This document shows, piece after piece, positions 6,070 through 57,000 of a stretch of 64,000 bases of DNA. Origin of the DNA: Maylandia zebra. Lineage: Eukaryota > Chordata > Actinopteri > Cichliformes > Cichlidae. Position numbers and translations under genes: made by a program. Each line of letters opens with the position of its first letter. The stretch's first letter is position 1. The notes under the pieces are model-generated. The model did no database searches. It was given only the letters and a program-made list of their open reading frames with translations, and had not been told where the DNA came from. The stretch spans positions 19,419,560-19,483,559 of the forward strand of contig NC_135177.1 in NCBI RefSeq assembly GCF_041146795.1, given 5' to 3'.

Positions 6070-6076
6070 TTGCATC
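6070..6076. repeat. Left target-site duplication of the 11.5 kb element
   Basis: TTGCATC lies directly outside the left inverted repeat and is repeated exactly at 17623-17629 directly outside the right one. If the element ended one base differently the duplication could be read as 8 bp with one mismatch. Confidence 0.8.
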
Positions 6077-7287
6077 CAACACGTTCTCACTCCCAACTCG
6101 TCAAACGTGTGACGCATGGTCAGGCTCCCTCTGCTGCACTTATGGACGCGCAGGGTACCCCTCTCGCGTCGGGAATTGACGTGAAGGGTCCTCCGATTGA
6201 AGAGATTGCCGGGAAGTGCCTGTTGTCGGTATATTTAGACATTTTCCAAATCACATTGTAGTGACGTATACAGAACACAATAAATTATATAATGTAAACA
6301 ACTACCTGAAAAACAGGTAGAACGATACTTTTGTATGGTTTATTGCATTTACGGAGGGAGTGATGTATGCTGGGTAATGGCACAGCTAGCGACTGGGTGA
6401 CTTTATTCACCCGCTTCGGCTGTTATCAGTCCATACATTAGCGTTATTAGCACAAACCAGTCCCATAGATATGGGCCATCTCCTGCTAGATTGTTCAGAA
6501 GGTTGTTCTCATCCATCCAGATGGAGGATCACTAACAGGAGCGTGGGAAGACTCCAGAATCCACTCTGGCTGGAATCCGGTGGATATGCAGTGTGTACAG
6601 GTAAGACCATTTAAACGGACAGCATTTATAGAATGACTATTAAAAGTCAGCGAGTGTCAGTAATGTTAATGTGGTTATGTTAGTAATACACCGAGTGCTA
6701 ATATAACAGCTTTAAGATGCATTTGTAGATGTTATTACGTGTTTTACCGTCTTTATGGTGCTAGCTTAAAGTTACGGTGTAAACGTTAGCTTATATTGGA
6801 GGAAAGCTGTTACTGGTTAAACGATGTTAGCACAGAAATATTAGCTTCTGTCATGACTGATGAAGTTACTAGTTAATAAAGTTTTCAGTAAAGTGTTTAA
6901 TCGCAGCCACAGATTGACAGCAAATATCTCGGTTAGCTTCAGTGCATCTATAATAAATATGTGCAAGTTTCAGTGCTTTGTTTAAACTGTATGATACTTA
7001 TACTGACCCAGGGTCAGTGTAAAATACAATCCTAGCTGTGTGAACAAAGCCTGGCTCCTTTAATCCTGCATGACAAACCTCAGGATGCAGGTTATTATTA
7101 CTCTTTCCTGCTGGCACACCTGTCACACCTGAGAGTCAGCTAGAAACTTACAGTGACGTGGACATCATGCAAAGACTGCCAGACTCTGTAATACTGCAAA
7201 TGATCAGTGACTCAGGTTAACACTAAACTTTAAACGGCACCTCTGTGTCTCTGTGTGCTGAACATCTAGGATTGAGTCAGGCTGCAT
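6077..7287 (+). repeat. Left terminal inverted repeat (1,211 bp)
   Basis: It is the reverse complement of 16412-17622, and any base at x pairs with 23699-x. The outer 180 bp are GC- and CpG-rich; the inner part is AT-rich. Identity stops abruptly after GGCTGCAT at 7287. Substitutions seen include CACAAACCAG against CACAAATCAG near 6455. The arm includes an open exon at 6471-6600 ending in CAG followed by the donor GTAAGA. A 63-codon frame at 6070-6261 is probably fortuitous. Confidence 0.9.
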
Positions 7288-8480
7288 CAGCTGAAGCTGT
7301 TATTTGTATATATCAGTATTTTTTATTCAGGTGTGGGGAAAATACGTAAGACTGCAGTGAAGCGATGCACCAGATTAATCCCTGGCCAAAGGTATCGTAC
7401 TTAAATCAGACTACTGATCCAGCCACATCAGCCGTTTGTGAGGTCTGTTTAAAGTAGACTAAAAGTGAACTGCAGGTTCCTGAGAGGTGGACTGTGAGCA
7501 CAGAAACACATGTTCATACATACAGCTGCAGCAAACTTACATTAATTTTAAATAGATTTGTTACTCTGATGTCTGTCTCTGTGTTAGTCCTCTGACAGAC
7601 TGGTGACCTGTCCAGGTGTGCTCTACCTGTGACTACTGGGACAGGCTCTAGCCTCTGTAATAGAAATGTTCTGTTATTCTCATTTTAAGTATTTAAGTGC
7701 TTATGCATATGCTTAGTTGTGACACTGTTATAGACTGTTCAGTGAAAGTTTCTAAAACTAGATGAACTTACTTCAGCGTCAGCAGTTTGAGAAAACAACT
7801 CCCTTTACAGGTGCTGATAAGGCCAAGGGCACAAAACAGCTTAACCATTGATCCGTTGAAGTGTGGTAGGATCAGTTTGTAACTTCCTCCCTCTTCCTTG
7901 GAATGCATAAAGGAGGAGGAGCACAACTTCTGTGGCAGCGCTGACATGACTGAACTGTGATGTTTGATGTGTGTTGGCGCAGTAATAAATAGCTTGATCA
8001 CAGCTCTTTCTGTGTTGCAGACTTTATTTCAAAAATTCCACGACCCCCCCCCCCCCCCTCCCACTGTGAACCTGAATTGAATATTCAGAAGACATTTGTT
8101 TAAATAGTTCTACAAATCTGAGCTGTCGGTGTGTCCTTGGATTGTGTGGTAATAATATTAGAGCCTGCAATCTTTCTTACTGAATCTCTACTATGAGTCA
8201 TGTTACCTGAGATTAATTCTATGTTTACCTGTCAGCCTGGACGAATGTGCTGTGTGAAGGAAATTAAATTAAATCAGATCTGAACTGCGTACATTTGAGG
8301 AACCTGGTCATATTTAATTGAAATATGAACCAGTGATTTTTTTGATTGCTGATTCCAAGATAGTCTTTGTGGAAATCCTGTTTGGCTTTTTGTCATTTTA
8401 ATTCTCTTCTCTGTTTTCCAGAACAGTTCTCCACAGTCGCTGTCCACATGGGTCAGTGGGACCAAGAAGCACTCTGCTAA
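6471..8480 (+). CDS. Putative two-exon reading frame starting in the left arm (speculative)
   Basis: Exon 1 at 6471-6600 opens with ATG (MGHLLLDCSEGC...) and stays open for 43 codons to a phase-1 donor CAG|GTAAGA. A strong acceptor TGTTTTCCAG precedes 8422. Joining the two gives 18 further complete codons and then TAA at 8478-8480, for about 62 residues. I recognise no domain, signal peptide or homologue. Further exon-like segments follow (around 9655-9790, 9860-9930 and 10530-10745) before an AATAAA at 11108-11113, so the unit may equally be a non-coding spliced transcript. Confidence 0.2.
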
Positions 8481-11400
8481 TGTGGGACTCTGACCAGCAA
8501 CATCCAGCAAGACCCAGACAGCGTTTTCTATCTCCCAGCTGGAGTTTTTTGTTTGTCTGTGACTGGAGAGTCAGATTTTTGTTGAGCTTCACACTTGCAG
8601 AGGTAAGTCAGTTTGCAGAGATCCCTCCCACCCTGGCTTTTATGTGCTAGATTTCTTATCTGAAACGGTAATATTTCAGTGACTGCTGCTTCTACACTCT
8701 ACTGATCCCTGATGGGAGAATCATCAATTTTGGCAACAAAGAAGCCTGGTGGATGTTTGTTTACAGTCTGATGATGGGACATCATGCTCTGCATCTTCAA
8801 AGTTTGCCTCCTCATTATTATTCATACCCAGTAATGTGAAGTATGCTCATATCTACTATAACTGAACCAACCTGGTGCTCTTCATTTATGGAGGCTGTTG
8901 AGTCTGAATGTTGGATGTTGTGTATCTCGTGTTCTCTGGGCTTTGTTGTCCTCAGTCTTTTTGCAGGATCAGAAAACAAAACCAGGAGGCGCGTAAATGT
9001 TTCTTTTCCATGATGTTTCTTCAAATGTTTCTTCTGGATGATGATAAGACTGTGACACAGGATGCCACCTTTGGTCTTGTGATGAAGCAAAGCTCAGGAA
9101 GAAGTGTGATTAAATGGTACCCACATGTGTGCTGCTGAGAAGGATGTACAGGGGCACCTGCAGCCAAATCCAAGCTTCAGGTTAGTTGTAGTTGCAGAAC
9201 GCTATAGACTGAGACAGCTGAGGCATCAAATGTTTGATTAAACGGATGAAAAAGAGAAGTTTCTTCCCTATAATTATCACTTCTTAAAATCTGTAGCAAC
9301 TTCAAGTCTGTCAGCGTGCTGAGCATGCTCAGAATGTGACAATATATTTTTGTTCAATATTTAATTTCTTTCAGTTGCAATTGTTAAATGAAAAAAAAAA
9401 ATAAAAATATATTCTTATAATTTAGCAAACTAATTTATCAAAAGAAATATACATATATCTGTATTAGTTTTAATAAATTAATTTGACACCTGTATTGAAA
9501 ATACCATATTGTATTCATACAGAATCAGTTTGGTATCATTGTTTGTCTTTTCACTGATTGTTGAAACTAAGAGTTGCTTTGATCTGTTTAGATCTAAAGT
9601 ATCCAAAGTTGAGCTCTGATGTTTCTTCACCCTTGTGTGTGTGATATGTGATTCCTACATGCTGGCAGAGCAGCAGTTTGTGCTCACAGATGGTGACGGT
9701 GTGGAGAGACGGTGGTGTTTCCTCAGAAGAACCAGCAGAGTCACTCGCTGACTGATGCTCGTCTGCACTGCACAGAGGAAATCAACTGACCGAGGTTTGT
9801 CCAGTGACGTGTTATGAATGTATATTTGTTTTATGCTTACAGTTATGTTTTTCTTGACAGAGGCTCTGCAGAGGTTAGACAAAGCAGAGAAAACATGTGC
9901 TTTACATTTTACTGTGATTTATTGAGATATTTGTTGCCTGATGTTCAGCAGGAATGGAGAAATGGAATCAAAGGGAGATGTTTTTGCTGTTTTTGTAATG
10001 ATGTAAGTAAATCTTCAATATTATTTATTTGCTTGGTTATATTAGGAGTGTTTCTGAGTGAGGGGGGAGGAGTCATTATCCAGGTAAAGTGACGTGGATC
10101 AGTGGATACACTTGTCTCCCCTTTAAAGGAGACACTCTTAGAGAGAGACGATTAGAGTCATCCTTAAACGTTAGTGCTTTCAAATACACAAACATTTTTA
10201 AAGGACAAAAATGAACATCCAACTTTGACTGTAATACAAAATAAATCTTTGCATGTGTGTTTTCAAACTCTCAGATGGGCAGCATATCAGTCTTGGACTG
10301 TCTAACCTGCCGGAGCAGCACTGAATGACCACCACACATGAGCATGTTCCTGCAACATTCAGCATCTGATCCTTCATCTGTGTGCTGCTGCTTTTGGTAA
10401 GTAGAGTTACCCAACTACAGTAACTCTAAACACATGCCATCCATTTCTAACGGCCTGGTTACTTCCTGTCAGTTACTTTAGAAACCAAGTGGTCACCTGA
10501 CCTAACACTGTTTCTTCTTCTTCCCCTTAATGTTCAAGTGTCACATGTCAAACAGCTGGAGAGGAAACTACACCAGTGTACTGGGATGTTTCACCAACAC
10601 GTGCCAGATGCTGTTCCTTCATGGTGACATCACCAGAGACAGCCCCACCCACCTCAGGACCTCGCCATTGATCATGATGATTATAATGATGACAGCGAGC
10701 GGAACTAAGACTGTAAAAATCCACGACCAGAATTTTTCTTTCTAATTATTAATGAATACTGAGAGCCTCTTTCTGTGTTTTGTCTGTTTTGTTTTTTTTT
10801 TACCTCATTTGTTACTAACAAAGTTCACAAACTCACACAGTTTACATTCTGTATGTTTCCATCTTTACCAGCCACACTCTAACTGCATTTAAGAAAATGA
10901 TCCTTAGAAATCGTCCTTTTTCTCTTTTGTAATTGATGATAATTCAGTGAATATACTGCGCTGCTTCCTTCTATTGCGTCACACATTGCTTTATGTTTTT
11001 CAGTGTCCAGTTATTTTTTACTGCTGTTTGAATTCTCTGAATGTTTGACCCTGTAGACTGTTTGATGGACTGCTTGTCTTCCTGTTTGTAACCGCCGCCT
11101 GTTTTTTAATAAAGATTTGGATTTCTGACTTTAACACAGCCTCTGCGTGTCCTCCCTTTGTGTCCTCTTCCTCTGTGAATGTGTTGCATGTGTCACAGAT
11201 TCCTTTTATTAACAGCTTTCCCACAGTGAGTTGCATCAGCATTCATTCACAGCACATTTCAGAAGGATTCAGATTAATACAGTGATCTTACAGTCAGAAT
11301 GATCCTGACAGAGTGCCACTGTAAATGATCTTTCATCAGGTAAATTTTAAAGTTCAGTATTTCAAAGCAGGAGTTATGAAGAATCATGCTGGCATTAGGA

Positions 11401-14400
11401 CTAATAATATGTACTTAAAGTCAAAGTTTTTTAATTATGCTAGAATATTGGAAGACAATCAACTTTTACTGTTTTCCGCATATTAATTATTCTGAAATAG
11501 AGACGGTGACCCTAACTGTACAGAAGCACTAAACAGCTGACAATCTAACAGACATCATTGGCCTGAGCTGTCATGTACAGTGAGTCTGATCCTTTGCTGT
11601 GAGAGTCTGACAAGCATGTTTCTGGTCAGTTTGGAAGAAATAATATCACAATGTTGATCTTTTTTCCAATATTCCTTCTCTTTTACAACAAACTGTGATC
11701 AAAGCTACTTATGTTCACAGCATGTAATAATACTGACAGTCCAGGGCACTGTGGTCTGTTGAGCTAGGGTTAGGGTTAGCAATTCAGACATATGTAATCA
11801 ATATTAAACGTCTCTGACGTGGGCCACTGTCTGCAGTGTTGGGAAATCCATACCAGGCTGGAACGAGTCAAGGTAGGTGAGCATCCACAAGAAGACACAG
11901 CAGATGCATCCTACTAATACTGACAGGACCAGGAGACTCCAGAAACCGAGCATGTTCTCTTCAGTGCCATCCTCGCCTGTCACCCTCTCTGCCCGCAGCT
12001 CTTTGAGTATGGGGTAGATAAGGGCGCAGAGAAACCCTTATTACTAATTCGTATTATAATTCAATTTTCATGAAATATTCATATTCAGTATCGGTCCTTT
12101 TATATTATAACCACGTATCCACCCAGGCTCATGGTGGGGCAGGGCTCTGTCCTGGGATGCTTGAGTACAAGGTAATGTACACCTGACCAGGTATCCAGTC
12201 TGTCAGAATTGTTTTCAATATTTGGTTCAAAAACACGAGTGACAACAAAAATCCAACTAGGATTCTTGCATATGATGAATGAAGTCTGTCTTTGACTGTA
12301 TTGTCCAGCTGATCCATCAAACCCCCAGCAGGTGAACCTTATTCATGACATAACACGGCAACAATGTAAAAAATTAAACAGCAACAGTCTAAATGTAAAG
12401 TGCATTCTAAACTCCTCTTCAATAAATCATATGCAAAGAGTCATTCAGGACTGTAAAACGTGAACTACAGAACCCAGAGTCTTCATCATTAAATCTCTGG
12501 TTGCTTCATTTTTCTATCCTATATCAGATACTTTAAGGTTAGGTTAGGTAAAGTTGCATTCTCATGGTGAGGCAAATGCTTTATGTGTGTGTGTGCGTGT
12601 CATGAACGGCTATAAAAGGCCTATAATTAAAGAACAAAGCGGGGTTTGAGTTCGAGTTGCGGCAGACTGTCACTACTTGTAAATGGAACGCAGCCTTCCT
12701 GCGGCGGACAGCTAATAACAGGAATCGGACGCGGTCCAGCCAAGTCCACAGCAACCACCACAGCAACCGCCTAGCATGACCTTAAAAACATATTCTGTCT
12801 TCATAACTATCAAAAACATGAAATGATTTGCAAAGTGTTTAAGTGTTACAGCTGCAGAGAGCTATGGTGGTATCTTTGGAAGCTGTTTGCATAGCTAATA
12901 ATATACGATGTAACCATGGAGACAGTCAGTCACGTGAGCTAGCGGTGCACGTTTACTACAGTGAATAAGGTGATTGTGTGCACAGCGTCCACACGCTGCA
13001 GAGGGTAAAGACATTACTTCAATATTGTTTTATATTTGCCTTCTGTTGACCATCACCTCAGGTTCACCATTACAGTTTCAGCAGACAGATGCACACTGTC
13101 TAAATATGAACACAATCAAAAACTCATGTCTCAGAAATAAGCACAGCTGTTCATGTTTGTCATTAGAGTTTTATTTGTAAGAAAACTATGAACTTCATAT
13201 TGTGCATCAAACAAAAGAACATTTCACAACTCTGAGTCAACAGAAATGTCTCTAATGTAGACGTGTACAGTGTAGTGTAAGCATTAAAAGATCATAAAGG
13301 AAACACTAACATTCATGTGAAACTAATTGTAATAAAAAAATGAACAGGTGGTTTATAGATTTAAAAGAAAGAATCTGAAAACAACACTTTTTTGGTCTAA
13401 GTGATCAAAGTAGAAAACAGAACTGATGTTCAAAAACAAACCGTAGCTGCACTAATATTACACATCTCCATTGTTGTGGTGAACAGACATGTTGCTTTTA
13501 AAACCACATGCAGTGTGTGACCGTGACTGTTCACTGAGACCATGAACGCCACTTCGCTGAAGCCTTCGCCTTCTTCTTCTTCTTCTTCTAAATTGGAAGC
13601 AGAAGGAGCACGAGCTGCTTTGATCTACTGAAAGGAAAAAGCAGAACATCTGAGCTGAAACCAGTCAGCTGAAATCATTAAGACAGGAACAAATTCAATG
13701 CAGTGTCTCAGGTGGCTTAGCCTGTTACAACTGTTGATACAAGCTAAATACGGTTAACACACAGTGTCAGGGAGCTCCAGTGTGGGAACTAGTGGCTTTA
13801 GGTTTGTAGTCATTTAACTTTCATCCATTCATTCATTTAATTCAGGAGGAAGAAATGTCAGGTTGATGCAGGCTGGTTACATGCATTTGGTCCCATGCTG
13901 TCTTTAACTAAATGACTTGGTTCACTTTATGGCTGGGCTGTATGTGGGGTTATATCATGTTATTTGGGCAGGAGTACCTGTCCCCTGTTAGACTTAGAAA
14001 GTTTCTCCATAAGTAGAGTTTCTAACTCTTCTAGCACATCTGTGACTGACAGCTTTTTGGTGGCTCTTTTTACCCCACACTGGTTGTGAGTGTGTAAATA
14101 GCCCCACTAGTTCTTTTGGGTTGCAGTTAACTTGGGAGGAAGAGGTAGGTCTGCCATGACTAGATGTATAACAATTATCTGGGATACATAAATTTCATAA
14201 TGCATGCATATATCTCTATAAACCTGCCTGAGGGCTGCCATTTTTTACATTCAGTTATTTCTTTGTTGAATCTAAATAATGAATGTGTTACAGTTAAACT
14301 GACACTGATCAGTGTGAATGGCTCATTGGGACACAGAAACCTTTAAATTAAACCCATCACCTGATATCGAGTGTCAAACAATATCAAAGCTGTAAAAGCT

Positions 14401-16411
14401 CTTTACAGTCAGAATTTATAAAACTATGATTGTAAATTAATTCAAACAAGTGAGCTTTTCTCTTTGTGCTGAATATCAACACTGTGGTTTCTTAGACTGT
14501 AAGCTTTACTTTAGCACAACCACTTGTAGAAGCTGCCACTCCAAATGTCTTTTGATAACAAGAAAAAAATACCTTTTCAGTCCACGGCCTGAAGTTCTTC
14601 TCTGACATCTTCTGCCATCGGCTTTGTCTGCTGGTTTGAAGACAATAAACCACAAAAAAGATGATTTAGTCACTTTGTCTGCATCATGCAGCTCGAATGT
14701 GTCGTGTAACGATGTTGAATAGCCGTCGTTATCCCTCTGCTGTGTCAGCAGGATTGTACTGTACAGCATCTCATTGATATGTGAGGAATGCTAATGTAAA
14801 CAGACTTACATCATTAAAACATAAAGGACAGGAGATATTTAGATATTTTTATATTTATATTACATTTTATAGCTGACGGATATTACTAAATAGATAGAAT
14901 TTACTAAATAGCTGGATGAACATGAAAAATATGTCTATAATCACAAATGACCATGAGAGCCAGTAGAATTAATTCAACTGGACACTCGAAAGACGTCCTT
15001 AAATGCTCTTTAAGTGGCAGAACAGATAAACAAACAGTTAATCGCTTACTTGAGATGAAATCTGCTCAGCTACTTTGAAAACAGCTTCTAACTGGTTCCT
15101 CCTGTAACAGGATGACTGCTCAGGGGTAAGGCCATCATGCAGTCCAGCAACCTTTATGGTTCTGCTTTGATTCACCAGGAACTATTAGGGAAACCTTCCA
15201 GCGCCTCCTGTGAAAGACACAGGCATAAACACACAAACATTTATTAACATGTTCCACAGTCTTCCAGTTTGATTTTCTCATCCTGTGGACAACAACGTAC
15301 ATGGATGCAGGTTTATTGTTGACTTTTGTAAGGTTTATTTAGTGAACATATCCAGCTGCAGCTCCACTGTGATCCTGAGCTGGATAAGCACTTAAGAAAA
15401 TGTGTCAATAAATGGACATACATCAACTTACTATATTTATCCAAACAGACGGGACCAATAATGCTTCACTGAGTTAGAGACTTTAATGTCTCTTCTATGT
15501 AAGAAGATCTCGTGCTGATATACCAGCAAACTTGACAACAAAGGTTTTTCAGACTGCATGTAGCTGTCCTCTATGTCAGCTCACACATTTACATTCATGT
15601 CACACTTATTTCTGCTTTCCCATTTTATAATTATTACTTACATTTTGATTATAAACCTTGAGTTTGTAAATGATCAGATTACATAATTGGAATACAATGT
15701 ATCCAATTCAGGGTTGCGGGAGGACGAAGCCTATCCCAGCTGATACAGGACAAAGACAGGCTGCCAGTTTATTGCAGGGCTAACACAATATGTGTAACAG
15801 AAAATCCACTTAAATGTTTGATATTTCTTATAATAATCATAATTATGACTATTATTTAAAGGTTTCTTTATAAATACATTTTGATTTTTTATAACCTCTA
15901 AAATATAAACCTGAGCTGTTTCAGATTCTGACCTCTGACCTCACTGCAGCTCCCTCTTGGAAGTACGTCTGCTTCTTGTCTACCCCCAGTGTTGACCGCC
16001 TGCCCTTGATATCACGTACTGTACCTGAGGAACAAAACAGGACAAACACTTGCCTTCATTTAAGAAGTACATTCATACAGAGGTAATCTATGGAAACACA
16101 CTAGTTCAACCTTTGGGAGGAATCAGTTCCTGTGAAACATTTCTGTAAATGAACATCATGTGGAGAATGAATGAAATGAGTTCTTCAGGTGACTCAGCAG
16201 TCCCACACTGACAAATGAAATCTAGTTAAACTATTAAGCATATTTGCTCTTCTGAAATCTGTGTTAAACAACAACAAACATAAATTAGTAACAAAAATAC
16301 AGCTGAGTAGAGGCTTTACAAACCACCAGCAGCCATAATGCTAAATTTTAATCTTCAAATGTTTCTGAGCCGTCTTCAACCTGCTTTTAACACATTAAAG
16401 TCCCACAGTCA
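7288..16411. other. Core of the 11.5 kb element between its arms
   Basis: This is about 9.1 kb of AT-rich, intron-like sequence with short exon-like islands on both strands, a 15-base C run at 8044-8058, an AATAAA at 11108-11113 pointing rightward, and short TTAGGG-like repeats near 11767. No DDE transposase, zinc finger or helicase frame is visible. The only segment that I can tie to a known protein family is the minus-strand ARL6IP6-like piece at 11854-12037. Confidence 0.6.
11854..12037 (-). pseudogene. arl6ip6: ARL6IP6-like captured gene fragment
   Basis: Read on the minus strand from 12037, 61 codons are open. They include LKELRAE, then an acidic stretch, LGFWSLL, a Cys-rich hydrophobic run, and LTYLDSFQPG. 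The same order is known from ADP-ribosylation factor-like 6-interacting protein 6 (KELHAEN, LGFWTLL, a second transmembrane helix, VTYFDSFEPGM). Two hydrophobic segments fit that small multi-pass membrane protein. The fragment ends at CCTG|GTATGG, a plausible phase-1 donor after Pro-Gly, matching a likely host exon end. An in-frame TAA lies directly before the first codon and no acceptor is visible, so the 5' side is cut within an exon. The last exon of ARL6IP6 was not found nearby. Inside a TIR-flanked element this is best read as a transduplicated piece of host gene; the parental copy should lie elsewhere. Confidence 0.75.
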
Positions 16412-17228
16412 ATGCAGCCTGACTCAATCCTAGATGTTCAGCACACAGAGACACAGAGGTGCCGTTTAAAGTTTAGTGTTAACCTGAGTCACTGATCATT
16501 TGCAGTATTACAGAGTCTGGCAGTCTTTGCATGATGTCCACGTCACTGTAAGTTTCTAGCTGACTCTCAGGTGTGACAGGTGTGCCAGCAGGAAAGAGTA
16601 ATAATAACCTGCATCCTGAGGTTTGTCATGCAGGATTAAAGGAGCCAGGCTTTGTTCACACAGCTAGGATTGTATTTTACACTGACCCTGGGTCAGTATA
16701 AGTATCATACAGTTTAAACGAAGCACTGAAACTTGCACATATTTATTATAGATGCACTGAAGCTAATCGAGATATTTGCTGTCAGTCTGTGGCTGCGATT
16801 AAACACTTTACTGAAAACTTTATTAACTAGTAACTTCATCAGTCATGACAGAAGCTAATATTTCTGTGCTAACATCGTTTAACCAGTAACAGCTTTCCTC
16901 CAATATAAGCTAACGTTTACACCGTAACTTTAAGCTAGCACCATAAAGACGGTAAAACACGTAATAACATCTACAAATGCATCTTAAAGCTGTTATATTA
17001 GCACTCGGTGTATTACTAACATAACCACATTAACATTACTGACACTCGCTGACTTTTAATAGTCATTCTATAAATGCTGTCCGTTTAAATGGTCTTACCT
17101 GTACACACTGCATATCCACCGGATTCCAGCCAGAGTGGATTCTGGAGTCTTCCCACGCTCCTGTTAGTGATCCTCCATCTGGATGGATGAGAACAACCTT
17201 CTGAACAATCTAGCAGGAGATGGCCCAT
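14577..17228 (-). CDS. Putative four-exon minus-strand gene starting in the right arm (speculative)
   Basis: Proposed exons, in transcript order, are 17228-17099, 16024-15933, 15181-15050 and 14630-14577. Exon 1 is the mirror copy of the left-arm exon. The joins keep frame: phase 1 (CAG|GTAAGA to CCTCAG|GT), phase 0 (TCAGAG|GTCAGA to CCCTAATAG|TTC) and phase 0 (TCTCAA|GTAAGC to AAACCAG|CAG). Translation gives about 135 residues, with DIKGRRSTLGVDKKQTYF in exon 2, SRTIKVAGLHDGLTPEQ in exon 3 and ending EELQAVD before TGA. I recognise no family. The open frames are short enough to occur by chance, and the three consistent phases are the main support. It may be another captured gene or an element-encoded accessory protein. 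Confidence 0.25.
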
Positions 17229-17622
17229 ATCTATGGGACTGATTTGTGCTAATAACGCTAATGTATGGACTGATAACAGCCGAAGCGGGTGAATAAAGTC
17301 ACCCAGTCGCTAGCTGTGCCATTACCCAGCATACATCACTCCCTCCGTAAATGCAATAAACCATACAAAAGTATCGTTCTACCTGTTTTTCAGGTAGTTG
17401 TTTACATTATATAATTTATTGTGTTCTGTATACGTCACTACAATGTGATTTGGAAAATGTCTAAATATACCGACAACAGGCACTTCCCGGCAATCTCTTC
17501 AATCGGAGGACCCTTCACGTCAATTCCCGACGCGAGAGGGGTACCCTGCGCGTCCATAAGTGCAGCAGAGGGAGCCTGACCATGCGTCACACGTTTGACG
17601 AGTTGGGAGTGAGAACGTGTTG
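16412..17622 (-). repeat. Right terminal inverted repeat (1,211 bp)
   Basis: It is the reverse complement of 6077-7287 and the same length to the base. It ends GAGAACGTGTTG at 17622, followed by the TTGCATC direct repeat. It carries the mirror exon (ATG complement at 17226-17228, donor at 17098-17097), so transcription from this arm would run leftward into the core. Confidence 0.9.
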
Positions 17623-17629
17623 TTGCATC
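17623..17629. repeat. Right target-site duplication of the 11.5 kb element
   Basis: TTGCATC is identical to 6070-6076 and directly abuts the right inverted repeat. Confidence 0.8.
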
Positions 17630-40189: not shown

Positions 40190-43100
40190 ATAATGGCACC
40201 TTTTAATAGCAAAGTGGAATACAAGCAATCATTCCTCTGCATACAGTATGATGAGATATTTGAAATGTCTCTACACCTCTTTCAGCCTTTTCTGAACTTT
40301 TCTAATTTAGTCTCTTCAAAAACTGTTGAATACCTTCTTGTCGAAACGTTGCACCATATGCAGCAAAACCATATGAGTTTAAATAGCCTTTGCTTCTTCA
40401 CTTCTAGGTGCAAGAGTAAATGCCAAAGATAACAAGTGGCTCACTCCCCTGCACCGAGCTGTGGCCTCCTGCAGTGAGGTATGTGAATTTTCCCTTTGTT
40501 CTCTGTCATACACACTACAAGACACAGGTTTGCATATCCAAACAATGTAAACCTACTTGTTGTTTTTTCTTCACAGGATGCTGTCCAGGTGTTGCTGAAA
40601 CACTCGGCTGATGTAAATGCCCGAGACAAAAACTGGCAGACGCCACTTCACATCGCCGCCGCCAATAAGGCGGTCCGCTGCGCCGAAGCCCTAGTGCCAC
40701 TACTCAGCAATGTGAATGTGTCAGACAGAGCAGGCCGCACCGCGCTGCACCATGCAGCCTTCAGCGGTCATCTGGAGGTAAATTTAAACCCTAAGACATT
40801 GTTAGATTAAACTGTGCTTAAGGAGGCACTTTAACATCTTTGGAATCGATGTGGTTGCACGTTAATGAATTGAAATAGCAGCTGAACGTTTGGTATCAGC
40901 TTTCTTAAGGAGCAGAGTGTTAATGTAGAGGGTTGGTGAGGTTTTGTGGTTGTAAAGTGTGCAATGTCTTTGAGTATAACCTCTTCAGTAATCCTCATAT
41001 TGATTGATTTAAATTGCTGTGTGCTACATAGATTGTTTTTGCTGGCAAACTGTCAGAGTATGCTAGCATTACTGGGTGTGTTTACCTGACTGTTATTAGA
41101 AGTTCCCGATCTCTTTCTAAGAAGTGTTTCTGCTTGCCTCAAGAATGATTAAACACTGGTGGGCACTCTGCCATGCAGTGCAGAATAATGGTCACATTAT
41201 TTGCCCATTTAACAAGTGTTAGTTGAGACAAGCAACATCCACATATAGGTCTGCTGAATTTTAGTAGCGCATGACTAACCGACCCGACCGTTTGATCCCG
41301 GATTCAGTTGCGCAAAATCTGGTCCAGTCATCCAAATGCTTCCTGACATCAGGGCACCCTCTTAAGTTAAAGAGGGCAGCTTTTCAATGTTTAATGAGCC
41401 AGCTACATTGAATTAAAGAGCACAAACTGCATTTTCAGACATGGCTTAAGACTGAGTGGGCTCTCTGCATGCAGTCATAAATTGTGGTCGCATACTTAAG
41501 GGTGCTGGATGCACAGATAGTGCTTGACCAATCATGTGTCTGGATGCAAATTACCCATTGTAATCTTGTACTTGCATGCAAATTAGCTATCTTAAAAGTG
41601 AATTATCAAAAATTCATGCAAATGAATGCAAGTGCATACAAGCTATTTGGAGCATCTTTTAGGTATACAGTGGATTCAAGTTAAGCATATAAATATGAAA
41701 AAGGTGAGTCTATGGAGGTATGCTCCAAGAGAAGAATGCCACACTACTGGCTGTACAAGACAGGATATTTGGAAATGCATGTTTTCTTGTTTAATCTTAA
41801 TTATATTTGTTCGGTTGGCATACCTGCACAGAATCTGTGCAAAAGGGTGACAAGGTTTCACCACTCATGTTTGCTCAGCAAGTTAAAAAAATAACTTTAG
41901 AAACCCCTGCAGGTTCAAATAATTTCTATTATATTAAAGTGAAGATACGCATACATTGACAAGACAATTGATCCAAGAGCGCTAAGATAAAGTCACTGAA
42001 CTCGTATGTCTAATATGTAAACACTGCATATGTATATAAGTTGCTACATTTATTGCAAATGGTAGATGGGTAGGTTGATGTTGCAGCGTCCCCTGATGTT
42101 TTTTCTCATCCCCTGTTTGGTTTTTTTGGGTTTTTTGCTACTTTTAGATGGTGAGACTCTTGCTCTCCAGAGGGGCCAACATCAATGCTTTTGACAAGAA
42201 GGACCGCCGTGCGATACACTGGGCCGCCTACATGGGTAAAAAATAATGCAGCCATAGAGATTTTTACGTTTTGGTATTTGTTCATTTTTATGCAACTTTA
42301 GACATTCCTTTCTTCTTGTGGTCAATATTAACTTAAATGGCAGAATTTTATTTGAATAAAAATCATCTGTTAAAATGTTTTTAAATGTTTACATTAGAGT
42401 AGATGCCATATGAACAAAAAACATGTCTAATATCTTTGTGTAAGCATTATGTAATTAAATCTCTTTTTATCTTCAGGACACATAGAAGTGGTGAAGCTGC
42501 TGGCATCACATGGAGCTGAGGTGGCCTGCAAAGATAAGAAATCTTACACCCCCCTACATGCGGCAGCCTCTAGTGGAATGATCAGCGTTGTTAAATACCT
42601 CCTGGACTTGGGGGTGGATGTAGGTTCCACCCACAAGCTTTTTGCCATCGCACTGTAGACACTGCTATACTGTATGAGCTCAACAGGAGAGATATTTTTC
42701 AGTGGTGTCTCTAAATTGTGTGTTACAACTGTTCTAACTGTAACTGTTCTTTTATTTGTAGCACTTTATTCTAATTGTTTTAATTGCCTGCTGTTTTCCT
42801 GACTTTCTAGATCAATGAGCCCAATGCATATGGCAACACACCCCTCCACGTGGCCTGCTACAACGGGCAAGATGTGGTTGTGAACGAGCTCATAGACTGT
42901 GGAGCCAACGTCAACCAGGTGAACGAGAAGGGCTTTGCCCCTCTGCATTTCACCGCCGCCTCGCGTCACGGAGCACTCTGCCTGGAGCTTCTGGTTTGCA
43001 ATGGGGCAGATGTCAACATTAAAGTGAGTAAAAACCAGGCAAAGCTTGTTATTAAACAACTAAGTATTTACATATATTTTTAGATATAACTTGTAACGAC

Positions 43101-46100
43101 CACCATTTTCTTTGTGAGTATTTATTACATGGCATGCTGCGGGAAAAAGCCTGTTGTAACCTTTGAGTCTAAGGTTTATTTTGAGCACCTGACGGCTCCT
43201 TTTGGCCTCCCATCCGTAAACTCTCTCCATACTCTTTCACATGATTCTTGCGTAGGTGGTAGAGGTTTGTCGTGTGTGAGTTTGTGCTGGGGACCGGTTT
43301 GCGGCATAATTTGCATAGTACAGTTTTCTGGTCTGTGTCAGACTTTTCATAACCAAACCATTTCCATGCTACAGAGGTAGCCCCTAGTTTAGTATTTCTG
43401 TTTGGAGCTACCTGGTTCTGCCTCATCTTCGCTGGCCATGCTGGTATTTTCTGTACCTGCATTCACTTGGTGGCCATCCAAACAATGAAAAAATGCGACA
43501 CCACAAATTAAACGATAGCGTATAAAATCGCACAGCCCTAACGTCTTGCTTCCTTGTGTGTAAACGTGTATTATTGTGCCTGCTTCCTACATGTGATAGG
43601 TCTTCTCATTGTTTGAGGGAAGCTGATTGACTTGGGGATTAAACTTTACTGTAAAAAGGCATAACTTGTCAGATAATAAGTTTTTGTTTCAATTCAGAGT
43701 AAAGATGGGAAGACTCCACTCCACATGACAGCGATCCATGGGAGGTTCTCGAGGTCTCAAGCAATCATTGAGAAAGGTGAGCTGTTTCTCATGCTGGACC
43801 CAGAAGCAAAAACTGCTTTTTAGTGTAACAGAGGCTAAATGCTTGCTTTGATTTTTGTTTTTTCCCCCTAAAGGTGCGGAGATTGACTGTGAAGACAAGA
43901 ACGGAAATACACCACTACACATTGCCGCTCGATACGGCCACGAACTCCTCATTAACACTCTCATCTCCAACAGAGCTGACACAGCTAAGTACGTGAGCCT
44001 TTCTGTTGATTTTTCAGTCAAGTCTTAGAACATATATTGAAGAGCCTTCCTTCTGAAAGCACACATGTAGTATCTGTTGTGTAACTCATATAAATGGTAA
44101 TGTGCTAGTAATAGTCATTTTTTTATTCCCACATTAGCAACATTGTTGTGTACTGTTTGTATGATACAAAGTTTTTTGTTTTTTCATTCAGACGAGGAAT
44201 CCATGGCATGTTCCCACTGCATTTAGCTGCTCTCAGTGGCTTCTCTGACTGCTGCAGAAAGCTCCTGTCTTCAGGTGAACGGCACTCATGCCCTGTCACA
44301 GCCTTCAGTGCAACGTGACACAAAGCTCACGTTTAAGTAGTTTAGAAATTCCTGACAGGAAAAAAAGTACAAAAATATATCATGTGCAATGTAAAACATT
44401 TTATAATATATCCTGAATGTGTCTCCTTCATAATCACTTTTACCCTGTGCAGGCTTTGATATTGATACTCCTGATGACTTTGGGAGGACCTGTTTACATG
44501 CTGCAGCTGCTGGAGGGTCAGTACACGATGGCTGAATATCGCCTTTAGTATTAAAGTATTGTGTAATTTTTAATCAAGTGACTATCTGTCTGTCTAACCC
44601 CTCAGAAACCTGGAATGTCTAAATCTTCTCCTCAACACTGGGGCCGACTTCAACAGAAAGGACAGCTTTGGCAGGTTTGTAGTATTTATTGGTGGATTTG
44701 GATCAAGAGTCAAATTTGAACAGGGAACTGAGCTGTGTTTGCTTTTCCAGGACCCCTCTGCACTACGCTGCTGCCAATTGTAACTACCAGTGCCTGTTTG
44801 CTCTGGTGGGGTCTGGGGCCAGCGTCAATGACCTAGACGAGCGGGGCTGCACTCCTCTCCACTACGCCGCTGCGTCTGACACAGATGGAAAGTCAGTAAA
44901 TTCTCTCTATTAAAAATGGTGGATGTTGTGTGGGAGGTGGTTCATGTTTGTAGTTTTTCACAGATAAAAGTAAAAATAACCACCTGCATTATCCATTATG
45001 CTGAGTAGTGGTTTAGGACTAGAAGCCAACATGTTGTTTCCTTGACTACAGCGCTTTTGTTGTGTCTGCAGGTGCCTGGAATATTTACTGAGAAATGATG
45101 CAAATCCAGGGATCCGGGACAATCAGGGCTACAATGCTGTGCACTACGCCTCAGCGTATGGACATCGCCTTTGTCTGGAGCTGGTAAGAACTTCAATCCA
45201 GAGTACATGACACTTAACAGCCACCATGTCCCTGTTTTCATATTTGTGTTTTGTGGAATTCTGCTTAAAGAATTGCCTGTTTTTTGTTTGTTTGTGTTTT
45301 TTTCCTGTTCTTTAACAGATTGCAAGTGAAACACCCCTAGATGTGGTAAGTTGATTTTTAGTTCTTTAGTTCTTCTTTTTAGGCTCTTGAAGACATTTCA
45401 CCTCTTGTCTGAGAGGATTCTTCAGTTATAACAGTGAAGAATCCTATCATGGGGATTATGAGCTATTCAGCCCCTAGTGGTGCTTTCACCTTGGACTTAG
45501 TCCAGAGAGTTGTTGTCATCATTATTACGTTATTGGGGTTGCACATTTCAACATGTGAGTGAGTGAATCACCTGGGAGGGGATCTCAAAAGTGTGTTATA
45601 GTTGGTGTTTTAGGCAACCACCTGTTCTGAAATGGTTGTTCTGTTTGGGCATAGATGACTTCTTTTACTCCTCCTTGAATCGTCTGTGTTCTCTGGATGA
45701 CGTCTTGGTTCTCCCCTGGTGAATGTCTGACATTTTGTCTCATGCCTCTTTGCTGATAACTAAAAGTACTCTGTTAATGTGTGCGTTCCTTTTTCTTTTA
45801 CCTTGGAGGGAACGTTTTCTGTATAGTTGTGTAAGCTTCTGATAACCCTAGGTTTGTGTTCCACTGGGTGGTGGGACTCAGAGTTTATGGTGGGTTTCTG
45901 GTAAATTTCAGTGTTCAGGCTACTATCTCCCTCGGTTGAATGGTAACCTGTTTTTTTTTGGTGTCCTTGATGTTTTTATCCCTTTAGTTGATAGATTTTT
46001 TTAAATTTAATTTCTTGAGTTCGTAGAAGAGAAGAAGCCTCACAACTGAGGAGTCTCTTCATAAAACTAGCAAGAAGTACCACAAAACTCTATGACTGAG

Positions 46101-49100
46101 GCCTTATTTTCTGGACCTGTGGGTCTGGTTGAGTCCAAGTGATGGAATTTTTTTCATTAGTCAGTGAGCACAAGGGTCCCTACAGATGTTCGTTTGTGAT
46201 CGCCCAAACTCATCTGCAGAAACATTTTCATTACAATACAAAAGCCCCAAGCAACAGATTTCAGCCAAACTTCAAAGACGTATAACAGGAAGGATTTTTC
46301 TGCTGTGATGTCTCCAGCTGTCTGTAACTCTGTCTATAACAGAGTATAATCAAGGCTTGACATATTTTTTTGTAGTTTTTATGTATATAAAATAGGGCAC
46401 AGAGTCATGCAGTAGGAAAGGAAACAATATCTGAATCAGGTTCTCATGTGTGTCTTGGCTTATTCAGCTAATGGAAACCTCAGGGACAGACATCCTGAAC
46501 GACGCGGATGTCAGAGCCCCTGTCAGCCCCCTGCATCTTGCTGTGAGTAATTTGAAACACTTGGTTTTATCCTTCTGGTGAGCAGTACATGTCACCAGCG
46601 TCAGCAGTAACTTTATAATGGGGGAATCCACCTTTCAGGCATACCATGGTCACCATCAAGCTATGGAGGTTCTGGTGCAGTCTCTGCTGGATCTGGATGT
46701 GAGAAACAGCCAAGGGCGCACACCCCTGGACCTGGCTGCCTTCAAAGGGCATGTGGAGTGTGTGGATGTCCTAATCAACCAGGGAGCCTCCATCTTGGTG
46801 AAAGATTACACCTTGAAGCGAACACCTATACATGCTGCAGGTATGTTAGACGTGGAGTTACAAATAAAATTTCCTGAACCTGAAAATTCAGACCCAAATA
46901 CAACATAAGTAATAAGTTAATCTTTCCCGCAGCTACCAATGGTCACTCAGAGTGTTTACGTTTGCTCATTGGAAATGCTGATCTTCAAAGTGCAGTAGAC
47001 ATTCAAGATGGGAATGGACAGTAAGTTAAATGAAAATCTTTTTATTTTATTTCCATTCTTATTCTAAAGTCATTGCTAACATTATTGCCTCATATCTCCT
47101 AGAACCCCTCTCATGCTTGCGGTCCTGAGTGGACACACAGATTGTGTGTATTCTCTGCTAAATAAAGGAGCCAATGTAGAAGCCAAAGACAAATGGGGCA
47201 GGACAGCCCTGCACAGAGGAGTAAGTAAATGTCATTATTTTTGCTCATATTTCTGTGCATAACTTTATTCACAGTTTTCAGTATGGATACCTAAATCTTG
47301 CTACCACTATCAGAATTTACATGTGTATTTCTTGGCCTTTGTGGAATGAGTGTGTCTTTCAAACATCGCAACAACACAATAATCACAACAGTTTTTTTGT
47401 TTTGTTTTTTGTTTTTTACTGTGTTGCAAGGCACATTTCACTTATTGCCAACCAACCAGCATGTCAGACATGTAGTCCAGTCTCGCTTTTCGAAATATTG
47501 CTTGTCAACATCCTCATTTTCTCCTGATTAGATAGTTGCAAGTCATTGTGTACATGCCTAAATGATGCGGCAGTATCTACAGTTGGTACAAAACAGCAGC
47601 AAGTATATTCACACTAATCACAGGGAACACATCACTCACAGAACGACAGTAACTTCCCATTTGCTTCAGAATCCCAAGATTTTGGCTCTACTTGATACGT
47701 TAGAGCTCCTAATACCTCATACCACCCCTAGACCCTTCAGAATCAGTTGCTGTTACATATTTTACAGTTAAGGCTTAAAACAAATGGTAAACTGTTTTAG
47801 CCCAGTTCTGTGGAACAAACTTCCTCTCGCAATTCTATCAGCACAATCATTTCCCCATTTAGAAATAAATAAACGAACTTCAGGAAAGTATGGACTGGCT
47901 TTTACATGTTGTTTTCTTACATTTTTACTTTTGCTTTCTTTGTCTATTGCTTGTATATCTTCTTTATTCATTAATGTTATGCTTTTTGGAATGTTTTAGT
48001 ACTAATATTTTTTGTAAGTTATATAAAGGACCTTGTGTGATTTTCCATAATGTATGGGTTTACACATTTAGTTGGCAAGCGAAAGGTCGATAGTTGAATT
48101 CCAGTCTGAGACGCAAAACTCTCTACCCAGTATGACTTTACAACACTCCTACTGTGCCAGCTTTCTACACAAATATGCTCTATTTGGACAACAGACATGC
48201 CAGCATATATTGAAAAGAAAACCTTGCCATCAAGGCAACGTAGGCATCATGTTAGGAATCGATGTGGAAATATTCTGCTTTGGGATGCCCAAAAGGCAGT
48301 CAAGATACTGAAAGTAAAAAGAGGCTGACTTCTACTATAGTGCAGTGACCCAACGTAGACCCTCAAAATGTACAATAAACAACTTAAAGAAAAAGAAGCA
48401 ACACTCATGGAGGAAATATTGTGAAAACTGGGTAGTGCTGCGAGTATCTGAGAGGTTTCTCTGAAACCTTGTTTTTTTTTTTCTACATATTGTATGTTGT
48501 CATTCAGGATGTAAGCCAGTCATTGGTAAAACCTGTTTTCTGTTCTCAGGCGGTGACTGGCCATGAGGAATGTGTGGAAGCTTTGCTTCAGCACAGCGCC
48601 AGCTTCCTGGTGCGAGACTGTAAAGGGCGCACACCGATCCACCTGGCAGCGGCGTGTGGACACATAGGGGTACTGGGAGGCCTTCTGCATGCTGCCCAAT
48701 CAGTGGAAACACTCCCTGTCTTAACAGACAACCAAGGCTACACCCCACTGCACTGGGCCTGCTACAATGGTACAGAGAAGAGGGCTTTGATGACATTCCG
48801 TGTAGATAAAGACATTTACATGTGATGGTTAGAACATGCAAGCCTGCCACTAAGTGCAGTAGATTAGTATAATGAAGCACCCAAGTAAATGTGGTTGGAA
48901 TATAGCCAAGCACATCTTTTCCATGTTTATTGCTTGCTCATCATACAGATGGCGACAGAATTATTAGTCCCGTCTTTAAACATTTTGTGTTTCCCAGGTG
49001 CTGTTAAACAAAGAAAGGAATTTTTCTTTTATAGTTTTTTCAAGCATCCAAGTTGTTTTTTTTGGATGCCTACATTATTTTACTTTGCACACAGAGATTA

Positions 49101-54065: not shown

Positions 54066-57000
54066 ATGGACGAAGTGACAGGAGCTCAGCTCATCGCTGA
54101 GTCTCTAAAGGCTCAGGTAGGAATGACGTCGTCTGCAAACATGTGGCACTCCAACAGAAATATTCTCCCTGTTTGTGTCTTTGCTCAGCTGTAACTGTTG
54201 AGCAATGTGTCAAAGTCCAAGTGCGGTGCGGTCAGGATCACTAAACTTTTCATAAAAGCATTTCCCCCTCTTATTAATAATGCTACTTTTTTACAAAACT
54301 TGTTCAATCCAACGTTCAACCAATCTCCCTGCAGAAAGTGGACTACATGTTTGGGATAGTTGGAGTTCCGATTATCGAAGTGGCCATGGCTGCTCAGGCT
54401 GCAGGAATCAGATACGTAGGAATGCGCAACGAGCAAGCGGTAACTCGTTGTTTTGTACAACCTTAGTAATCCCTAACAAAAGCATTGCACTGCCATGCTG
54501 ACATCAAATAATTTCTGTCGCATAACAGGCGTGCTATGCAGCGTCTGCCGTCGGATACATTACTGGGAGGTAAAATCTAATTCTGTACCGAATAAGGTGA
54601 ACAGCTGGTGCCCAGCACTGTTATTCACATGTTGCTGTTTCCTGTGGTTATCTGAATCCAGACCAGGGGCCTGTCTTGTGGTTTCTGGACCTGGGCTCAT
54701 CCATGCCCTGGGTGGAATGGCCAATGCCAACATGAACTGCTGGTATGACTCCATAACCACTGCTGTGTACTGTACAACTAACAAGGTGTTTATGAAGTGA
54801 TGCTGGCTTTGCACAGGCCGGTGGTTGTTATCGGAGGGTCTTCGGATCGAAATCAGGAAACTGCAGGAGCCTTTCAGGAGTTTCCTCAGGTAACACGTGT
54901 CTCGATGTGGATTTTTGCCTGACACCGCTTCTCTACGCTGATTCTGTTTCTCCATGTTGCCAGGTGGAAGCATGCCGCCTGTACAGCAAGTTTTCAGCGA
55001 GACCCAGCAGTCTAGAAGCCATCCCCTCAGTGATAGAGAAGGTTGTATAACAATGCCCTCACACTGTCTGTTTGTTCTTTTAATGTATCGAACAGATCTG
55101 GATGATGATGATTATTTTCATCACGTCTGTGTAAAGTTTTCTGGTATTTGGTTGGTCACAGGCGGTCCGCACAAGCATCTATGGGCGTCCAGGTGCTTGT
55201 TATGTGGATATTGCAGGCGACATGGTTAATGCTAAAGTGGAGAGGAGCAAAGTTAGGTTTGTTGTCATTCTTGGATTTAAAAATAAATAAATACATTTTT
55301 ATGCACAGTATCACTCGTTAAACATCAGGTGTATAGACTCTCAGAGAAGTGTGTCTCTCGCTCAGAGAGGTGTCCTGCTGTCCGCCTCCACCAGTGAGTT
55401 TGGCTGACCAGGGTTCAGTCACAGAAGCCATATCTGTCTTAAAAGCAGCCAAGACACCCTTGGTCATCATCGGCAAAGGTAACTGAAACAAAAGAAGCAA
55501 TTGCCACCTCTTTTCAAATTAACTAAGCCTAACCAACCTGTGTTTTTCCGCCAATAGGAGCAGCCTACGGCAGAGCAGAGACTGTGCTGAGGGAGCTTAT
55601 TGAAATGAGTGGCCTTCCCTTCCTGCCCACCCCGATGGGAAAAGGGGTTCTTCCTGATGACCATGCCAACTGTGTAGCTGCTGCACGCTCAAGGTAAGCC
55701 TCACACTGCACAATCACACCTGGTAGTAACCAGACAAAGTTGTAACAATCTGTAGAGCTTCTCCTTAATAGAGTAGTCCAGCAGAACTCTGTAACTTTAG
55801 TGTGTTTTAATCTTCCTGAAGTAGAAGGCATAGACATGCTCAGCAATACCCATGCAGGCTTTGGGGTTTAATCAATGCTCAGTTGATATTAACAGTTGAA
55901 ACAAGGCTGGATGGATTGATGCCTTTGTGCTGTGTGTGCCAAAATCTGACCCTGCCATCTGAATGTTGCAGCAGAAATCCAGACTCATCAGACCGGGCAA
56001 CATTTTTACAATTTTGATGATTGTATTGATGTATTGAGCTGCTGCCAACTGATTGGCTGGTTAGGTATTAATGTGCAGTTGAACTGGTGTACCTAATGAA
56101 GTGTTAGGTAAGTGTATAATAATACACTTATAAAAGTACTTGTTTTTTAAAAGCGATGGTCAGATTTTTCAAAAAAGAAAACAGTCTAACATCCAGACAG
56201 ACGGATGTGTTTTGAGTGCAGCTCCTATTTTGAATGTGTTTTTAGCTAGAAGACAAAATTCACCTTCTATATGCATTATTAGGATCGAAAAACATTCTGC
56301 CTAAGGGAGAAGTGGCACGAAGTTTCTATTTCTATATTTTTTAGGCCAAGAATAGTTGACAGTACATGTTTAGATGGCAAACAAACATTTGTGTCATGGT
56401 CATCTATCTGGCTCCTAAATTCTGCATCTTCTAACTAGTCAGGATCTAAAATTTTTAGTCTTGTTTAATGAGAATCCATTTTTTGACCTCTTCTGCTGTT
56501 TGTTTTTTATGTATTTTTTCCCTTGTTACCCAGAGCTCTTCTCCAGGCTGATGTCATACTTCTGTTTGGAGCCAGGCTAAATTGGATGCTCCATTTTGGT
56601 CTTTCGCCTAGATTTAACCCTAATGTTAAGATCATTCAGGTATGTAAATGACCGAGTTTATGGTTTGAGAAAAATCAGCATTAAAAGATCTGGTTTAAAG
56701 CTAGTAGTCTATTTGGTTGTTAATCTTTTGCCTTGTCATGAGAGAGTTAGTTTTGCCAAATCTGGTGCTGCAAAAGCTGTAATGATATAACCCCACTGTG
56801 ATCTGTTTGCAGGTTGACCTTTGTGCTGAGGAGATGGGCAATAACGTGAGGCCAGCTGTTGCTCTCCTTGGAGATATCAGTGCTGTTGCCACTCAGGTAC
56901 ATTTTCAGCAACTCAGCCCATTGGCTCATCTTTCTCTTTGATGTTTTTCCCATAACGTTAATTTAGGAATCAAAAGCAAACCTGTTTCATCAACATTTGC

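Follow-up and report, generated by a model that had tools for sequence, protein, structure and literature searches.

The 11.5-kb unit bounded by kilobase-long inverted arms belongs to a multi-copy family of mobile elements with fixed ends, 7-bp target site duplications and a shared interior that includes an exon of the host gene family ARL6IP6, and closely similar copies occupy different sites of the genome. It is probably a large, non-autonomous, gene-carrying cut-and-paste DNA transposon whose superfamily is most likely KDZ (Kyakuja-like). The host exon and the probable KDZ affiliation go beyond what the initial annotation had seen in the window, that is, in the whole 64,000-nucleotide stretch of Maylandia zebra DNA that was analysed.

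Architecture and boundaries of the element

The initial annotation had described equal, near-identical arms of 1,211 bp around 9.1 kb, flanked by a direct repeat exact over 7 bp. Both statements were borne out (Table 1). The two arms are 1211 bp each, align without gaps and are identical at 1207 of 1211 positions, and 9124 bp separate them. The sequence TTGCATC flanks the element on both sides and matches over 7 bp, with no match at 6 or 8 bp. The ends of the element read CA..TG. The whole window gave no match to Rfam at gathering thresholds.

Table 1. Features of the element, in window coordinates
Feature	Position	Strand	Basis
Left target site duplication, TTGCATC, 7 bp	6070..6076	.	sequence comparison
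Left arm, terminal inverted repeat, 1211 bp, starts CAACACGTTCTCACTCCC	6077..7287	+	arm alignment, genome copies
CpG-rich outer left arm, o/e 0.98, putative promoter	6101..6400	+	
Donor-like CAG/GTAAGA in left arm, end of putative first exon	6601..6606	+	motif alone
Interior, 9124 bp, common to ten further complete copies, with deletions or inserts in some	7288..16411	.	
Interval absent from C1, C2 and C13, next to a poly-C run; two junctions that differ slightly	8037..8914 (approximate)	.	
ARL6IP6 exon (PF15062) captured from a host gene, open over 76 codons	11804..12034	-	Pfam E 2.2e-11, above cut-off
Interior common to the window element and the C3:58.04 Mb relative	15633..16411	-	
Candidate remnant of a transposase exon, open (TVRDIKGRRSTLGVDKKQTYFQEGAAV), preceded by TTCCTCAG	15930..16024	-	inferred, no family match
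Right arm, terminal inverted repeat, 1211 bp	16412..17622	-	arm alignment, genome copies
Donor-like CAG/GTAAGA in right arm	17093..17098	-	motif alone
Right target site duplication, TTGCATC, 7 bp	17623..17629	.	sequence comparison

Copies and target sites across the genome

The terminus and arm searches proposed in the initial annotation were run on the 962-Mb genome from which the window comes. The 24-bp terminus was found 310 times with at most 2 mismatches, and 100 of these 310 places were listed; the reversed control was found 0 times. The arm search gave 423 candidate copies, of which the best 40 were scored (96–100% identity). All 38 scored arms outside the window that were fetched start at the same base and begin with CA, and their first 45 bp are identical in 37 cases, with a single change in the other. 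Ten whole copies besides that of the window, 10.7–13.2 kb in length, have the same interior, with deletions or inserts in C1, C25, C2 and C3c; these ten are the pairs with both arms among the best 40, a choice that favours well-kept arms. About 870 bp at 8037-8914 are gone from C1, while C8, which otherwise differs from C1 by 0.05%, retains them. The C13 copy is also devoid of an interval near 8037-8914, and the junction at this gap in C2 and C13 differs slightly from that in C1.

Three longer arm pairs (C17, C4 and C13) were considered as possible autonomous copies and rejected, all three holding the interior of the window element plus inserts. Open frames read by eye as reverse transcriptase are present in C17 and C13, together with a Tc1-like transposase in C13; an extra open frame of 154 aa in the C4 copy (L076:890-1354 = C4:22607089-22607553) had no Pfam match. 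The exact 24-bp terminus occurred 0 times in the prokaryote genome and viral collections searched. No description of the family appeared in the titles and opening abstracts among the top matches of a full-text literature search; most subscription journals, Repbase and Dfam were outside its scope, and the family may be catalogued there.

Perfect 7-bp duplications, each different, flank 10 of the 11 complete copies (the window's and the ten others), and the duplication of C16 is imperfect (2 mismatches of 7). When left and right flanks of the 11 copies were mispaired, 0 of 110 combinations agreed with at most 1 mismatch of 7. An 8-bp duplication fails in 11/11 pairs, and no motif common to the 11 targets was seen by eye. 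The abundance of the terminus relative to its control and the failure of every wrong pairing show that the arrangement is not due to chance. The family is indeed mobile, as the initial annotation had supposed: nine of the ten other complete copies have perfect duplications that differ from one another and from that of the window.

Recent movement

Most copies are 0.4–0.8% divergent over the element. Divergence is 1.1–1.3% between C2 and most other copies, and about 2–2.4% for C3c and C16. Two pairs are nearly identical although their duplications differ, namely C3a and C3b (0.02%) and C8 and C1 (0.05%), which indicates recent movement. BLAST revealed no mutual similarity among the 300-bp flanks. 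Over 9440 gap-free alignment columns, 7 substitutions are private to the window copy. Taken with the near-identical copies at different sites, this agrees with a recent move, the first of two causes proposed earlier for the likeness of the arms. The substitution rate for cichlids is about 3.5e-9 per site and generation; at this rate the age of the window copy would be, as an order of magnitude, 2e5 generations, and conversion between copies would likewise reduce the divergence figures.

Homogenisation of the arms

The second proposed cause, arm-to-arm conversion, is also backed by the comparison of the copies. With arms bounded by BLAST matches and numbered by genome position, 3–9 sites (mean 4.5) distinguish the paired arms of one copy, compared with 12.6 for arms of different copies. 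Pairing permutations gave values as low as that observed in 0 of 100000 cases with all copies, in 0 of 100000 without the near-duplicates C3b and C1, and in 126 of 100000 after further removal of the old copies C3c and C16. With arms fixed at 1211 bp, where interior bases intrude in C7, C10 and C16, the corresponding means are 6.6 and 14.0, with 0 and 5 of 100000 permutations. Since arms of the same copy are closer to each other than to those of other copies, these data point to arm-to-arm homogenisation, and the likeness is probably maintained by gene conversion or repair copying. Against a simple picture of homogenisation, sister arms were found in the arm tree in only 3 of 11 copies (C16, C7 and C2). 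The arms of C3c share one clade with two other loci, those of C8/C1 and C3a/C3b group side by side, and those of the window copy, C10 and C25 are unpaired. Private alleles present in both arms number 13 in C3c, 11 in C16, 4 in C2, 1 in C7 and 0 in the other seven copies. When all copies were oriented on the window, no site distinguished left from right arms throughout.

A captured ARL6IP6 exon

Forty-eight stop-to-stop frames of at least 55 aa overlap the element. Of these, 40 were scanned against Pfam, the remaining eight being located in or across the arms (5) or in the interior (3). No transposase was recognised among the 40 of 48 frames scanned, consistent with the earlier view of an apparently non-autonomous family lacking a recognisable transposase. 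The sole match above the curated cut-off was to the host gene family ARL6IP6. This exon is found in all ten other complete copies at 95–99.6% identity, gapped in three. Genome-wide, the ARL6IP6 profile gave 69 matches, 52 of them stop-free over the matched stretch, and for at least 37 of the 69 a correctly oriented terminus is found no more than 25 kb away among the termini listed (to contig 13). A host gene piece located between the ends and kept in moved copies is the hallmark of Pack-type elements; this family has one, and shows clearly how a cut-and-paste element can multiply an exon of its host.

The end of the exon reads by eye as a splice donor into intron-like DNA, which suggests that the piece was taken from genomic DNA and not from a processed transcript. 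The best-scoring ARL6IP6 match (L082) was examined as a possible parent gene and rejected, being itself a copy of the element. A search of solved structures with the ARL6IP6 frame returned nothing useful (best E 0.92).

A relative associated with KDZ-like gene pieces

A relative at C3:58.04 Mb (L081) contains the terminus and arm positions 1-71, followed by arm positions 522-1211 and 0.8 kb of the right interior of the window element (98.6%), and then by different sequence. CxC3 (PF18804) is a cysteine cluster found in KDZ transposases. A match to this profile was found above cut-off (E 6e-9) in the next 5 kb of the locus (L083), which also gave a weak KDZ match (PF18758) below cut-off (E 0.008). 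In all, eight open pieces of the relative were scanned, yielding one CxC3, one sub-threshold KDZ and one Tc1-like DDE_3 match; no family was found above cut-off in the other five, including the first, which has a cysteine-rich stretch. Read by eye, further open pieces may be KDZ exons. The KDZ-like pieces sit inward of the shared arm, in the reading direction expected for a gene starting in the arm. A solved-structure search with one of these pieces returned none.

The KDZ link comes from this one fetched relative, 7.4 kb of a single locus in which arm positions 72-521 are missing and the gene is in pieces, and the locus could also be a chimera of the family's end with an unrelated KDZ element. 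The search for an autonomous partner with the same termini, as proposed earlier, gave one relative with a shared end and a KDZ-associated piece, and none with both ends. Neither the P profile run genome-wide nor the C3 relative yielded an intact transposase source. The region C3:53343036-60043223 contains at least 25 exact termini; those listed share the minus orientation, and no ARL6IP6 match falls between them. This part of C3 (53-60 Mb), of which one terminus was read, possibly reflects amplification of a segment that includes the transposase-bearing relative.

Arms as putative promoters

In addition to the CpG-rich outer left arm, CpG o/e values of 0.60–0.80 were obtained in the outer windows of the right arm, which are placed differently from those of the left. 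The interior has values of 0.0–0.6, save 0.77 at 12701-13000. The donor-like motifs of both arms point inward. The candidate first exon near the right arm (about 30 codons) is present in all 11 complete copies and in the C3 relative; the copy C3c has lost the acceptor AG. The region 12401-13000 shows raised CpG (o/e 0.60–0.77) and, by eye, a TATAAAAGG motif near 12611, and is a possible internal promoter or nested element.

Proposed mechanism and comparison with known elements

We propose mobilisation in trans, in which a transposase that is most likely of KDZ (Kyakuja-like) type would recognise the CAACACGTTCTC.. ends, excise the 11.5-kb unit and insert it with a 7-bp stagger. The family probably descends from an autonomous KDZ element in which other DNA, including an ARL6IP6 exon captured at the DNA level, took the place of the transposase exons. 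The shared arm, and perhaps the first transposase exon, would have been retained from this ancestor, and the long arms probably once contained the promoter of the transposase gene together with its first exon.

Few recently active DNA transposons are known in vertebrates. With its complete copies, clean duplications and KDZ-associated pieces in a relative, this young family would make it possible to test KDZ transposition in such a host. We tentatively put forward a fuller reading, in which this would be a recently active, gene-carrying KDZ transposon of a vertebrate, its kilobase arms providing a portable promoter and first exon on both sides, kept near-identical by conversion, and dozens of ARL6IP6 exon copies, most of them stop-free, having been spread by it. 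Among KDZ elements, Zisupton was reportedly first described from fish.

In the literature excerpts compared here, KDZ elements are mostly reported from fungi. Fungal Kyakuja is described there with 7-bp duplications, 5'-CA..TG-3' ends, no inverted repeats and a TET/JBP gene (PMC12730594). The present family resembles it in its 7-bp duplications (10/11 exact), in its CA..TG ends (CA in 38/38 fetched arms) and in the CxC3-type piece of a relative. It is unlike it in that the window element has 1.2-kb arms, a captured ARL6IP6 exon and no recognised transposase, whereas Kyakuja carries TET/JBP. Because of the 1211-bp inverted repeats, and because the transposase was not seen intact, we call the family KDZ-type and do not claim membership of Kyakuja. 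According to the excerpt on Cryptococcus neoformans, KDZ1-3 are 9.2–11 kb long with inverted repeats of 139–241 bp, and duplications are 8 bp for KDZ1 and 4–8 bp for KDZ2 and KDZ3 (PMC12810828). They are thus similar in size and in having inverted repeats well over 100 bp, but they encode a putative transposase and differ in the lengths of arms and duplications. Zisupton shares the superfamily, the inverted repeats and the presence of duplications, which are, however, 8 bp long (PMC12730594, in part). Plant Pack-TYPE elements, as excerpted, are DNA transposons that are likewise non-autonomous and acquire coding sequence (PMC8903248); they show many different captures, whereas one gene piece is present here in all eleven complete copies compared.

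Alternative explanations

Near-identical arms at one locus would fit an inverted segmental duplication, the alternative raised in the initial annotation, if the short direct repeat had arisen by chance. It is refuted by the multi-copy nature of the family, with its fixed edges, ten other complete copies and different perfect duplications, and its probability is negligible. A non-autonomous element of the P superfamily, moved by a P/THAP9-type transposase, is suggested by Galileo of Drosophila, for which the source excerpt gives 7-bp duplications, arms of up to 1.2 kb and, for two of four copies compared, a likeness of more than 99% between the arms of the copy (PMC2775673). We regard this as unlikely. 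The P profile PF21787 matched six times, at four places, none of which coincided with a listed position of the element, and no close 18-bp terminus was found at these six loci (best, 5 mismatches). The zebrafish P element Pdre2 is reported, in the portion consulted, with other 13-bp ends and 8-bp duplications (PMC10983969), and the gene piece joined to the family's end in the C3 relative is KDZ-associated. Galileo itself differs by its P-type transposase and by its target consensus GTAGTAC, the 11 targets here sharing no motif by eye.

That no intact autonomous partner was found and that the KDZ link comes from a single locus would also suit an undescribed superfamily with 7-bp duplications, the KDZ piece on C3 being a chance neighbour. 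This too appears improbable, since Kyakuja, in the text excerpted, already unites 7-bp duplications with CA..TG ends (PMC12730594), and the KDZ-like pieces, situated on the inner side of the shared arm, read in the expected direction. Two further groups were set aside as candidates. The hAT elements require 8-bp duplications, which fail in all 11 pairs. Dada elements have no terminal inverted repeats, as described for Dada-U6 and Dada-U1 in the excerpt (PMC3706591), and target small RNA genes, in contrast to the 1211-bp arms and the 11 targets found here, which by eye have no sequence in common.

Other features of the window

A BED zinc finger, just above the Pfam cut-off, was detected at 43169-43462 on the minus strand and is possibly a hAT remnant. 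Three ankyrin-repeat frames lie at 40487-48825 on the plus strand, and by eye we take them to be an ANKRD28/44/52-type gene. The resemblance of a frame at 54477-54800 to a thiamine-pyrophosphate enzyme falls just short of the Pfam cut-off; by eye, the frame is presumably HACL1.
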